Assembly: GCF_900109885.1 (NCBI RefSeq)
Contig: NZ_FOBS01000010.1
Coordinates: forward strand, 1-64,000
DNA: 64,000 bases
Reading direction: 5' to 3'
From: Syntrophus gentianae
GTDB taxonomy: Bacteria; Desulfobacterota; Syntrophia; Syntrophales; Syntrophaceae
Both the position numbers and the translations under genes were made by a program. A model generated the notes under the pieces. That model saw nothing but the letters and a program-made list of their open reading frames with translations, made no database searches and was not told the DNA's origin. The first letter of the stretch is position 1. The number at the start of each line of letters is the position of its first letter. Shown here piece by piece: positions 59,661-63,573 of the stretch.

Positions 59661-60335
59661 ATGGTCATGAACAAGATCCTCATCCTCTGTGATTTTGACG
59701 GAACAACCTGCAGCAATGACATGGGCAATACGATCATGAACCGCTTTGCCAAGGGATGGCAGGAGATCGACCGCTCCTATTGCGCCAATATCATCGGTTC
59801 ACGGCTTGCCTATCTGCAGATACAGCCGTTATTTCATGGGACTGAAACGGAAATGGTCAAATATGCCTTGGAACATGAGAAACTCGATCCCCATTTCGGA
59901 TCATTTTATGAAAACTGCAGGGATAAAGGCATCGACCTGAAGATCGTATCCGACGGCCTGGACTTTTACATTTCATCCATCCTGACAAAGCATGGTCTGC
60001 AGGAAATTGAATTTTACGCCAACAGGATTGACTTTCAGGACGATGCCACTGTGTCTATAGAATTTCCCTCGCCTCGCAACGGCTGCGATTTATGTGGGAC
60101 GTGCAAGAGCACGATCCTCGATTCTCACCGGGAATCGTATGATACGATCATTTACGTCGGTGACAGTTATTCCGATGTATGTCCTTCGCAAAAAGCAGAT
60201 CTTGTCTTCGCCAAACCCATTCTTTCAGAGAAATGCCGGAAGAGAGGGAAAGCTTGCATCGATTATGAGAATTTCCGGAATGTCAGTGAATATTTGAGTA
60301 AAATGCTGGAGACTGGAGAATCCCGAAAGCGTTGA
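59661..60335 (+). CDS. HAD-superfamily phosphatase, MtnX-like
   Basis: The 224-residue phosphatase has motif I CDFDGTTCSNDMGN near residue 10, motif II IVSDGLD, a motif III Lys in CGTCKSTIL, and motif IV IIYVGDSYSDVCPSQKADLVFAK. The DFDGTT and SDG forms and the C-x2-C pair near residue 143 match the MtnX/PHOSPHO-like HAD-IB branch, which dephosphorylates an intermediate of methionine salvage or similar small substrates. No other salvage gene is adjacent, so the substrate is open. It follows the membrane protein gene by 28 bp. Confidence 0.78.
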   Translation: MVMNKILILCDFDGTTCSNDMGNTIMNRFAKGWQEIDRSYCANIIGSRLAYLQIQPLFHGTETEMVKYALEHEKLDPHFGSFYENCRDKGIDLKIVSDGLDFYISSILTKHGLQEIEFYANRIDFQDDATVSIEFPSPRNGCDLCGTCKSTILDSHRESYDTIIYVGDSYSDVCPSQKADLVFAKPILSEKCRKRGKACIDYENFRNVSEYLSKMLETGESRKR

Positions 60336-60637
60336 AGGCCGTCCATTACGGGGTTGACCGGTTTATACGAAAACTCGAAATTTCGGGAAATCCTCTGAAC
60401 CTATCCGCTATTAAAACCTGTAGAAGAATCCCTGTCAGAAGTTTAATCCTCCATTAATAATGCAGTGGTTTCGTAAATCCTTGCAACCATGGATTATACT
60501 ATTTTGACAAAAAAGCACCCCCTATAATTCTTCCGCATCACATGATTCCTGGCAGGAAACATGCAATATCATATAAAAAATTTGGAAATAATGGATGGCT
60601 TTGGAACAAATCTATTCCATAGGAGGGAAAAACCATA
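60336..60637. other. intergenic region upstream of the DUF3334-like gene
   Basis: No gene is visible in these 302 bp. The only signal I would defend is the sigma-54-like site at 60550-60565, listed separately. A TTGACA at 60504-60509 and TATAAT at 60523-60528 look good individually but are only 13 bp apart. Confidence 0.5.
60550..60565 (+). promoter_or_regulatory. candidate sigma-54 (RpoN) promoter
   Basis: TGGCAGGAAACATGCA compares with the consensus TGGCACG-N4-TTGCA. GG and GC are 10 bp apart as required, with mismatches at one base of the -24 half and one of the -12 half. The next start codon is 72 bp downstream. No activator site was identified. Confidence 0.45.
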
Positions 60638-61255
60638 ATGGAGGAGCCACAAGTCGAAAGAAAAATCGTTGTTACAGATGATGTTATCAGAATTCTTTGC
60701 AGCTCTGTTGAATCAGTTCTTTCGAATACAATAAGAAGCGACATCTTCATCTCGCCCATGGTAAAGGAGCTTGAGAGTACCTGTTTGAAACCGGACATCG
60801 GTTGTTTCGTCCTTTTTCAGGGTGACTTTTCCGGATTGATCATTATCAATTTTACAAAAGATGCGGCCATGGAAATTTACAGGAACTACCTGATCGGAAT
60901 GGGCATGCCTGAGGACGACTTGGCGCAAAACCATACTACTGATGAAGTAGCAAGCAGCCTTGGCGAATTACTCAATCAATGTGTCGGCAAGTTTCGTTTC
61001 GATCTGGAAAATAAAACCGGCATTTTTGTGAATCAAAATCAACCTAAAATGCTGGTGGTCAATGAGTCGGTGCAAATTGCAATCGAAATGGGCATTGAGA
61101 GACAGCAACTACGGCAGATCTCCTTCAAAACGGTTAATGGAAATCGTTTTTACCTTGAGGTTGCCTTGCCGGACATCAAGTTTTATTCACTATTTGATTT
61201 TCATAAAGTAGAGCTTCCCGATATCGAAGATATGCTTGCCCAGGGAAAAGGCTGA
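60638..61255 (+). CDS. DUF3334-like protein (CheX/CheC-like fold suspected)
   Basis: The 205-residue soluble protein shows CLKPDIGCFVLFQGDFSGLIIINF, then AAMEIYRNYLIGMGMP and HTTDEVASSLGELLNQCVGKF. From memory these segments match the DUF3334 family, and the pattern of a strand-rich sheet and a helix with an E-x2-N-like stretch (GELLN) is reminiscent of CheX/CheC phosphatases. The function is not established. CATAGGAGGGAAAAACC precedes the ATG. A sigma-54-like site upstream and a GGDEF gene 74 bp downstream suggest a signalling or motility role. Confidence 0.55.
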   Translation: MEEPQVERKIVVTDDVIRILCSSVESVLSNTIRSDIFISPMVKELESTCLKPDIGCFVLFQGDFSGLIIINFTKDAAMEIYRNYLIGMGMPEDDLAQNHTTDEVASSLGELLNQCVGKFRFDLENKTGIFVNQNQPKMLVVNESVQIAIEMGIERQQLRQISFKTVNGNRFYLEVALPDIKFYSLFDFHKVELPDIEDMLAQGKG

Positions 61256-61329
61256 GCATCGTCTATTATTTAAGAATCGCTGACTCAACGCATCCTGTTT
61301 TTTCTGACCATCCGTAGGAGCAATTGCCT

Positions 61330-62316
61330 GTGAAAAAGAAACACTATGCCGAAGAATTGGAAGAAAGTATCCAAGTAAGAGAAGAAGAATCCATCGGAGG
61401 CGTTCAGGCTAAGGAGGTTCGGCGGGCATATGAAAAGGCATTGAATTGTATCTATGGTGTCTGTAATCTCATCGATACGCCGGGCATTTTTATGGAGGAG
61501 ATCATACAGGAAACGTCGGCCCTTTTGCCTTCAGCACTGCAGTTTCCTGATCTTGCCTGTGCCAGAATCACCGTGAAGGATCAAACCTACGAGACGGAGA
61601 ATTTTAATGAAAGTTCATGGCGGTTAGTCAGTGATATCAAACTACGTGGTGTTGCAGCTGGAGCGGTGGAGGCGTATTACCGGCAGGAACCTCATCCCAG
61701 GGGTCAGAATCCTTTTTTACCGGAAGAAGTCAAACTGATCGATATCGTGGCCAATTACCTGGGACTCGTTATCGAACGGAAAAATGCTGAGGAGGAGATC
61801 ATGCACCTGGCGACGCACGACGCATTGACGGATCTACCTACCCTTCTATTGGCCAGGGACCGCCTTGGTATAGCGATCAGCCTGGCACGCCGGAATAAAA
61901 CAACGGTTGCAGTGATGTATGTCGACCTTGATGGGTTTAAGGTCATCAATGATAATCTTGGTCATGAAGCTGGAGATTACATTCTGATCAGAACAGTCCA
62001 GCGCCTCCTCGCCTGTGTCCGCGAAAGCGATACGGTGGCCCGCGTCGGGGGGGATGAGTTTCTTATTATTGCCTCAGAAATTCATGACTCTGAGAATGCA
62101 GCCAAAATCGCCGAACGGGCCGGTTCTTTCATATCCCAGCCGATCATCTTCAAGAGAAAAAAGACAATTCTTGGCAGCGTAAGCATCGGAATTGCCCTTT
62201 ATCCAAACGATGGCATCGAGATGGAAGACCTTATCAGGAAATCCGAAGAGGCCATGCATAAAATGAAGAAATCCGGGAAGAAAGAAGGATTTCGTTTTGC
62301 AGATCATCCCGTTTAA
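61330..62316 (+). CDS. GGDEF domain protein, putative diguanylate cyclase
   Basis: The 328-residue protein has an N-terminal region to about residue 145 that resembles a GAF-type sensor (LQFPDLACARITVKDQTYE and GVAAGAVEAYYRQEP). The C-terminal GGDEF domain starts with ATHDALTDLPTLLLARDRL and contains the active-site RVGGDEFLIIASEI. A typical inhibitory RxxD site is not obvious before it. It should make cyclic di-GMP from GTP. The GTG 61330 start has AGGAG 9 nt ahead; TTG 61324 is too close. Motif intactness argues for activity. Confidence 0.88.
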   Translation: MKKKHYAEELEESIQVREEESIGGVQAKEVRRAYEKALNCIYGVCNLIDTPGIFMEEIIQETSALLPSALQFPDLACARITVKDQTYETENFNESSWRLVSDIKLRGVAAGAVEAYYRQEPHPRGQNPFLPEEVKLIDIVANYLGLVIERKNAEEEIMHLATHDALTDLPTLLLARDRLGIAISLARRNKTTVAVMYVDLDGFKVINDNLGHEAGDYILIRTVQRLLACVRESDTVARVGGDEFLIIASEIHDSENAAKIAERAGSFISQPIIFKRKKTILGSVSIGIALYPNDGIEMEDLIRKSEEAMHKMKKSGKKEGFRFADHPV

Positions 62317-62343: not shown

Positions 62344-63573
62344 TTAGAGCAACGCCAGACTGTCCGCCAGGGCCATGCCCGTCCGGGTCGGTTGTAAACG
62401 GCCGGCGGTGATTTTCAAATGTCCCGCCGCAAGAAGCGGTTCAAGGGCATGCTTCTTCTTGGTCCATAGATCAAATCCAAACTTTTCCGAAAAGGATTTC
62501 AGATCGATCCCCGCCTTGGTCCGAAAACCGAGAAAAAGCGTTTCCAGTTGGAGCTCGTCCTCCGTTAATATTTCGCAGTTCTCCACGGGCCGTTCCCCTC
62601 TGCTCAACCGAAGGAGGTAACTATCCAGGGAACGAACATTCTCCCAGCGCTTTTTCCCATCAAAAGAATGCGCCGCCGGTCCCAGTCCAAGATATGGGAT
62701 ATGCTGCCAGTATTTTGAATTGTGCCGGGAGATGCGACATGCCCCAAGGGCGAAGTTGGAAACTTCATAGTGACAATATCCCGCGTCTTCGAGAAATTCC
62801 GAAGTCTCCATAAAAAACTCAAAGAGTTCATCGTTATCCGGCATTTTAAAGAGACCCTGGGCGCAGGCCTTGCCGAGAGGCGTGTCCGGTTCGACCGTGA
62901 GCTGGTAGCAGGAGAGATGGGGAATCTTCAAAGATAAAACCTGCTCTAAAGTCATTTTCCAGGAATGTCGGTTCTGTCCGGGAATCCCATAGATGAGGTC
63001 GATGCCGAAATTGTCGAAACCGGCCTGCCGGGCAGCCATAATGGCTTGGAGTGCCTGATTGCTGCTGTGTCTTCGCCCTAGAAAGTCAAGGATCTTATCC
63101 TCAAAGGACTGTGATCCGATGTTCAGTCGGTTGATCCCCAGGAGGCGAATCTGCTCCAGGAAAGAAACATCAATATCGGCAGGATTGACTTCCAGGGTAA
63201 CTTCGGCATCTTCTGTAAATTCAAAGTTCTGCCGCAGATGAGATAAGAGGTCTGCCAGCTGAAGAGGAGTCAGAATCGAGGGAGTGCCGCCGCCGATATA
63301 CAGGGTGTCGAAGGAATCAAAAACCCTCCGTTGGAGAAGGACTTCTTGATAAAGAGATGTCAGGAAAGCGGGAATCTTCTGCTTCCCGGTTACGGAAAAG
63401 AAATTGCAGTAACGGCACTTGCTTCCGCAGAAAGGAATGTGAAGATATAGACCGGGGCGCTTTCCTTCTGGACATGCGGCGAGAAATTCAGCCCGAGAAT
63501 TCTCTTGACCTCCCGGAATGATCTCTTCCTTCGGAAAAATCTGCATATCTGTTGTCGAAATCTCAGTCGGCAT
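62344..63573 (-). CDS. hemW: HemW-type radical SAM protein (heme chaperone, coproporphyrinogen oxidase-like)
   Basis: The 409-residue protein has a radical SAM core with the HemW cluster motif C-x3-C-x2-C in [16 protein letters not shown] near residue 50. [23 protein letters not shown] and [12 protein letters not shown] follow. The C-terminal HemN-like domain has YEVSNFA and [11 protein letters not shown]. HemW delivers heme rather than oxidising coproporphyrinogen, unlike HemN with its different cysteine context. An N-terminal extension of about 35 residues precedes the core. The ATG 63573 start overlaps the lepA end by 11 bp. Confidence 0.9.

Follow-up and report, generated by a model that had tools for sequence, protein, structure and literature searches.

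Organization of the locus

The window analysed here, i.e. the whole stretch of 64,000 nucleotides at positions 1 to 64,000 of contig NZ_FOBS01000010.1 of Syntrophus gentianae, carries a gene of the DUF3334 family followed on the same strand by a gene encoding a GGDEF protein (Table 1). An earlier note, made from the letters alone, had placed a DUF3334-like gene and a GAF-like/GGDEF gene at this locus, and its coordinates hold, with Pfam E-values of 7e-70 for DUF3334 (PF11813; 235.7 bits against a cut-off of 25.2 bits) and 9e-39 for the GGDEF domain (PF00990). The ribosome-binding site of the DUF3334 gene is AGGAGG-like and that of the GGDEF gene is AGGAG (61316-61320). If the GTG at 61330 is the start of the second gene, a gap of 74 bp separates the two, and no terminator-like site was found between them by scan.

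Table 1. Features of the DUF3334 locus, with positions in the window.
Feature	Position	Strand	Evidence
HAD-type phosphatase, left flank, conserved in genus	59661..60335	+	Pfam
Imperfect palindrome CATGATTCCTG-g-CAGGAAACATG, includes the greater part of the 16-mer	60541..60563	+	leader of DUF3334
Sigma-54-like 16-mer TGGCAGGAAACATGCA, probably fortuitous	60550..60565	+	GG/GC spacing
DUF3334 gene, predicted CheX-class phosphatase, 205 aa	60638..61255	+	ORF, PF11813 and PF13690 matches, model, CheX-type structure matches
ExxN dyad, E110 and N113 of DUF3334	60965..60976	+	alignment invariance; aligned with GEVTN of CheX 3hm4
Tail motif DIEDML, residues 195-200 of DUF3334, possible CheY-docking peptide	61220..61237	+	motif counts
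GAF-like/GGDEF gene, 328 aa, GTG start proposed at 61330	61330..62316	+	PF00990 E 9e-39
HemN-like radical SAM protein, convergent, right flank, shared with G001 and G003	62344..63573	-	Pfam

In the GGDEF protein both the RxxD motif (residues 231-234) and the GGDEF motif (240-244) are intact, and the protein is predicted from its sequence to be, likely, an active diguanylate cyclase. Its N-terminal part, a domain also found elsewhere among the proteins of the genus, has no match in Pfam. Since the low-confidence model of the protein (pLDDT 65) gives weak matches of this part to GAF domains (E 0.016 and above), the label GAF-like is a fair one. A receiver domain was not detected in the GGDEF protein by Pfam.

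The DUF3334 protein has a predicted CheX-type fold and an invariant ExxN dyad

In addition to its own family, the DUF3334 protein reaches the Pfam cut-off of CheX (PF13690; 32.5 against 27 bits), while the cut-off of the NCBIfam equivalog for the canonical CheX of Thermotogales (NF041094) is not reached (22.4 against 280 bits). The structure prediction which had been proposed as a check on the 205-residue protein was run on an alignment of 24 of the 31 DUF3334 loci then available, and returned a CheX fold at a mean pLDDT of 85.7. All 34 Foldseek matches of this model at E <= 0.001 were CheX, CheC, FliY or FliM/C-ring entries, the best of them being CheX 3hm4 (E 9.8e-13). In structure alignments eight CheX-type entries gave Z values between 17.8 and 19.9, with CheX 1squ at the top (Z 19.9, rmsd 2.1, 152 residues), whereas CheC and FliY, which have the superfamily fold in common with DUF3334, scored lower (Z 12.0-13.5), as did the middle domains of FliM with the same fold (Z 9.8-12.1). 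The predicted fold is thus common to DUF3334 and the CheX proteins of Thermotoga maritima (1squ/1xko), D. desulfuricans (3hm4) and B. burgdorferi (3hzh) over about 150 residues, including the ExxN motif, at 15-20% identity in the structure alignments. DUF3334 differs from CheX in forming a Pfam family of its own, in the length of its core (model residues 12-178, i.e. 167 residues for 152 aligned), in the invariant GExxNQxxG and QP, and in a C-terminal tail present in many members. CheC has two ExxN motifs, whereas only one ExxN is conserved in the 24-row DUF3334 alignment.

A profile search of the PDB with the same 24 sequences found CheX 3hm4 at E 2e-4 and placed the GExxN of DUF3334 on GEVTN, but the unrelated TagH followed close behind at E 6.5e-4. 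Since TagH scores near CheX, the sequence evidence by itself is weak, and the CheX argument is therefore carried by the fold and the dyad. E110 and N113 are invariant in the 24 rows of the alignment and in 81/81 sequences (that of the window and the best 80 of 98 loci), and G109, Q114, G117, Q135 and P136 are likewise identical in all 81. Passages of two papers describe how CheX dephosphorylates CheY by means of an acidic residue and an asparagine, the ExxN (PMC3510030, PMC3035606), and the invariant dyad is how a working CheX-class active site would be expected to look. The proposal that the protein is CheX-like and possibly a phosphatase is therefore well supported by the Pfam cut-off, the fold and the conservation of ExxN. 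No paper was found under either DUF3334 or PF11813 in the literature searched.

In-frame stops were reported within the DUF3334 match of five loci, namely L002, L020 (G249), L022 (G293), L028 (G352) and L030 (G379). In L002 the match runs on to the gene's own stop, and in the other four the stop is perhaps likewise only the end of the gene.

A FliM-like motif in the C-terminal tail

Beyond the core, from residue 183 onward, 48 of the 81 DUF3334 sequences have a tail of at least 15 residues; 33 are without such a tail, at least one of which (L102) is apparently truncated. The strict motif [DE][VILM][DE]x[LIMV][LMIV] is present in 27/81 tails, against 1.05 expected from shuffled tails, and in 24 of these 27 the final copy stops 4-7 residues short of the C-terminus. 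Within the last 20 residues, the strict motif was found in 24/79 DUF3334 ends and 2/835 control ends, a tighter form in 24/79 and 0/835, respectively, and a looser form in 43/48 long tails compared to 6/835 control ends, all three patterns having been written after the tails had been seen. Proteins that were shorter than 100 aa or ran to the end of the locus were dropped, which left 79 of the 81 ends, and the 835 control ends belong to the other ORFs called by the same script in the same loci, some of which are perhaps not real genes. The protein of the window ends in PDIEDMLAQGKG, with a short helix of low confidence at residues 196-201 of the AlphaFold model.

The conserved CheY-binding motif of FliM is given as LSQxEIDxLL in the part of PMC5677366 that treats it, and an EIDxLL-like motif is present in the DUF3334 tail, but at the C-terminus. 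DUF3334 is likened to FliM by fold and motif alone, and the assembly of the C-ring is no part of this likeness. CheZ, a phosphatase, has a C-terminal CheY-binding peptide sequence. DUF3334 would follow the same design, the CheZ peptide being referred to in a section of PMC3774744 where one face of CheY is described as shared by CheZ and FliM; unlike CheZ, the protein of the window has no Pfam CheZ match and no CheZ among its fold matches. Neither FliM nor CheZ was returned at E <= 10 when the PDB was searched with two tails singly and with a profile of 25 tails, hand-picked from 28 listed, and when the cores are clustered at 60% identity the strict motif occurs in 4 of the 11 clusters; the tail is therefore a clearly defined pattern whose meaning is inferred and, by its likeness to FliM, may be docking on CheY. 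A literature text search with EIDALL gave, among the matches listed, only unrelated text, and no FliM was found by motif beside the FliG gene and the che cluster of the window's genome in five stretches of 20 kb.

The upstream region

The 16-mer that the earlier note had singled out as a sigma-54-type promoter does lie at the GG/GC spacing of such promoters, with its end 72 bp upstream of the DUF3334 start codon (60638), and it deviates at 2 of the 12 positions of the sigma-54 consensus. A scan that required GG and GC and allowed up to two mismatches found 6 such sites in the 64-kb window, each with two mismatches, while windows simulated by a first-order Markov model contained about 8 with up to two mismatches. 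Since 1.2% of simulated intergenic stretches of 302 bp carry such a site on the + strand, the 16-mer is a mild local oddity. In the same scan, the upstream regions of L033-L036, the DUF3334 loci of the four closest relatives, had no site, and of 80 DUF3334 upstream regions, that of the window among them, 3 had one, compared to 116 of 4000 random stretches. The DUF3334 and GGDEF genes are more than chance; the promoter-like site is barely so, and the number of such sites in the window is at chance level. As sigma-54 is encoded in the genome, a sigma-54 promoter is possible but unsupported, and sigma-54 control was rejected because neither an excess over chance nor conservation upstream of the relatives was observed. 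The strict consensus TGGCAYGNNNNTTGCW could not serve as a yardstick, since it has 0 copies in the 3.7-Mb genome and 0 in the reversed control alike.

An imperfect palindrome with arms of 11 bp overlaps the 16-mer. It was rejected as an operator, since equally good palindromes occur in 62 of 2000 simulated stretches (3.1%) and 28 times in the window, and the sole other exact copy of its core in the genome lies inside an ORF. RNA folding of the DUF3334 leader was unremarkable (z -0.78). A sigma-70 scan of positions 60336-61345 found one weak site, below the mean of 2.2 in shuffled sequences. A TATAAT is also present in the leader, at 60523-60528, with no matching first hexamer detected by the promoter scan.

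Gene surroundings of DUF3334

DUF3334 is uncommon. The family was found in 3/60 genomes and, across the phylum, in 29/395, 28 of them over the cut-off, the window's own genome being included in both counts. The nearest named relative is that of Syntrophus sp. PtaB.Bin001 (84% identity). For the comparison of surroundings, the best 80 of 98 confirmed loci in named genomes were used; since these were found by one peptide pattern, members without the pattern are missed. Gene calls come from a simple longest-ORF script, and where the contig ends a short way from DUF3334, as it does in several loci, some neighbours are hidden.

In the locus DNA examined, GGDEF was an immediate neighbour of DUF3334 in 0/80 related loci, so that among these and the window (81 loci) the adjacency is found in the window only. 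A full GGDEF gene anywhere in the locus DNA (1.01 Mb in total) was present in 7/80 loci, which we take to be close to background; a weak GGDEF match in L035 was added by a refined profile. Four loci (L048, L053, L066 and L102) have GGDEF two genes upstream of DUF3334. In L053, which alone was scanned by name, the gene in between has a Germane domain (Pfam).

Within the genus, what lies between the HAD and HemN genes varies, and in the window this slot holds the DUF3334-GGDEF pair. In the relative G001, which has no match to PF11813, the flanks and a GGDEF orthologue with 72% identity are kept, and the place of DUF3334 is taken by an ORF of 225 aa with phosphoribosyltransferase matches below the curated cut-offs. 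The slot of G003 holds other ORFs, and its best GGDEF match (44% identical) is located elsewhere. In G002, of the same genus, a DUF3334 gene with 84% identity lies on another contig; its slot is not visible because its HAD gene sits at a contig end. L033, the named locus matching G002, has a histone-deacetylase-like gene beside DUF3334 and no GGDEF nearby. Since G001 on the one hand and G002/L033 on the other carry only one of the two genes at the locus, each exists without the other. The GGDEF gene appears to be an independent neighbour, nothing having been found that ties it to DUF3334 beyond the adjacency in the window's genome.

DUF3334 directly follows a dnaB-like gene in five loci, in L063 after rpsF-rpsR-rplI-dnaB-like genes. 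When 131 immediate neighbours of 90-1000 aa were compared (shorter, longer or missing ones were dropped), no chemotaxis family was among the 25 commonest of their 159 families. The recurring neighbours include CTP transferase, DXP reductoisomerase, M50 peptidase, TsaD-family proteins and SfsA, the ribosomal proteins S6, S18 and L9 together with DnaB, and also ParA, transport permeases, M48 peptidases and phosphoglucomutase. No functional partner emerged from these housekeeping families, and since the surroundings differ and are mostly of this kind, the neighbourhood does not name a partner of DUF3334.

Co-occurrence with chemotaxis genes

Thirty genomes with DUF3334 were compared with 50 without it, the latter hand-picked by number as well as from the same order. 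A canonical CheX (best E <= 1e-15) was found in 30/30 genomes with and 22/50 without DUF3334 (Fisher 3e-8), CheW in 30/30 and 39/50 (Fisher 0.005) and FliG in 28/30 and 34/50 (Fisher 0.012), respectively, in counts that ignore the relatedness of the genomes. CheZ matches occurred in 11/30 and 12/50. With canonical CheX in every one of the 30, DUF3334 was rejected as a replacement of CheX or CheZ and is a companion of CheX, not a substitute. The genome of the window contains matches to FliG, to CheW (seven) and, DUF3334 apart, to CheX (four), and two of these CheX matches lie in one stretch of contig C8 where the ORF starts, named by eye, resemble a che cluster. In two genomes, G002 and G059, DUF3334, CheX and CheW were matched but FliG was not; these genomes perhaps have chemosensory genes without a flagellum, or else the assemblies are incomplete. 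The link to motility that the earlier note had suggested thus stands in a general and weak form, as a tie to motility and chemotaxis by co-occurrence of FliG, CheW and CheX, but not as a module of cyclic di-GMP and RpoN. Among the related literature, the pertinent part of PMC8789113 deals with other motility proteins and that of PMC2577667 with the numbers of che genes in Geobacter.

Proposed function and alternative explanations

The computed fold, the invariant dyad and the tail motif, together with the scattered gene context and the co-occurrence pattern, make it reasonably probable that DUF3334 is a divergent CheX-class phosphatase, with a CheY-docking tail in many members, which works beside canonical CheX. 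The gene product of the window probably switches off a chemotaxis-type signal. By analogy with CheX, its activity would be that of a phosphatase and its target CheY. The protein would dock on a CheY-type receiver domain, where E110 and N113 of the ExxN would enter the receiver active site and orient a water for hydrolysis of the phosphoryl-aspartate. The tail ending in D-I/V-D/E-x-L/M-L/M, which many members have, that of the window among them, might provide a further contact comparable to the FliM N-terminus that binds CheY, and this contact could raise the affinity or select among several CheYs. DUF3334 would thus act beside canonical CheX in bacteria with chemosensory genes.

The earlier note had read the locus differently, as an RpoN-controlled module in which sigma-54 co-transcribes DUF3334 and GGDEF and the CheX-like protein controls the cyclase. 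Although the promoter-like site has the correct spacing 72 bp upstream of DUF3334, sigma-54 is encoded in the genome and the two genes lie on one strand, 74 bp apart, with no terminator-like site found by scan, we regard such a module as very improbable, since the 16-mer is missing from each of the four closest relatives, only the window, of the 81 loci compared (window and best 80 of 98), has the two genes side by side, G001 has the GGDEF orthologue without DUF3334, five loci have DUF3334 directly after a dnaB-like gene, and Pfam detects in the cyclase no receiver domain that could be dephosphorylated. The module had been expected to fail if DUF3334 homologues did not co-occur with RpoN sites or GGDEF genes, and the comparison turned out against it, with upstream sites at 3 of 80 genes compared to 116 of 4000 random stretches and GGDEF adjacent in none of the best 80 of 98 loci in the DNA examined. 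The GGDEF gene and the promoter-like site appear to be beside DUF3334 by accident, and the analysis removes a false c-di-GMP/RpoN module from this locus.

Of the readings that keep the CheX fold, a catalytically idle adaptor, binding a receiver or the flagellar C-ring without hydrolysis of phosphate, would agree with the matches to FliM middle domains and with the resemblance of the tail motif to the FliM N-terminus. It seems quite unlikely, however, as CheX is far closer than FliM (Z 17.8-19.9 against 9.8-12.1), two DUF3334 genomes have no FliG match, and an inactive protein would hardly be expected to keep precisely the two catalytic residues invariant. Alternatively, DUF3334 may be a phosphatase for receivers outside chemotaxis, e.g. 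of a pilus or two-component pathway, which we consider a rather unlikely possibility. This would fit the presence of canonical CheX in all DUF3334 genomes, the CheW without FliG in G002 and G059 and the scattered housekeeping surroundings, while the co-occurrence with CheW in 30/30 genomes and the FliM-like tail motif argue against it. As the phosphatase chemistry is common to this explanation and to the preferred CheX-class phosphatase acting on CheY, the two are not exclusive.

With the preferred reading, DUF3334 gains a specific biochemical function, two named residues (E110 and N113) and a predicted docking tail. If it is true, the carriers of DUF3334 possess CheX-type phosphatases of two kinds, and one of the two often bears a CheY-binding motif resembling that of the motor. 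More tentatively, and with somewhat less confidence than doubt, DUF3334 may represent a class of response-regulator phosphatases that combine a CheX core with a C-terminal CheY-docking tail mimicking FliM, which in SAR324 members would form a multivalent tether. The tails with several copies could then hold several CheY-P near the enzyme or compete with the motor for CheY-P. Six and four copies of the strict motif, in the form acidic-I/V/M-acidic-x-L/I-M, are present in the Gly/Ala/Pro/Gln-rich tails of the two SAR324 MAGs L057 and L047, respectively, and both tails end in PSQ-A/S-DIDALFD.
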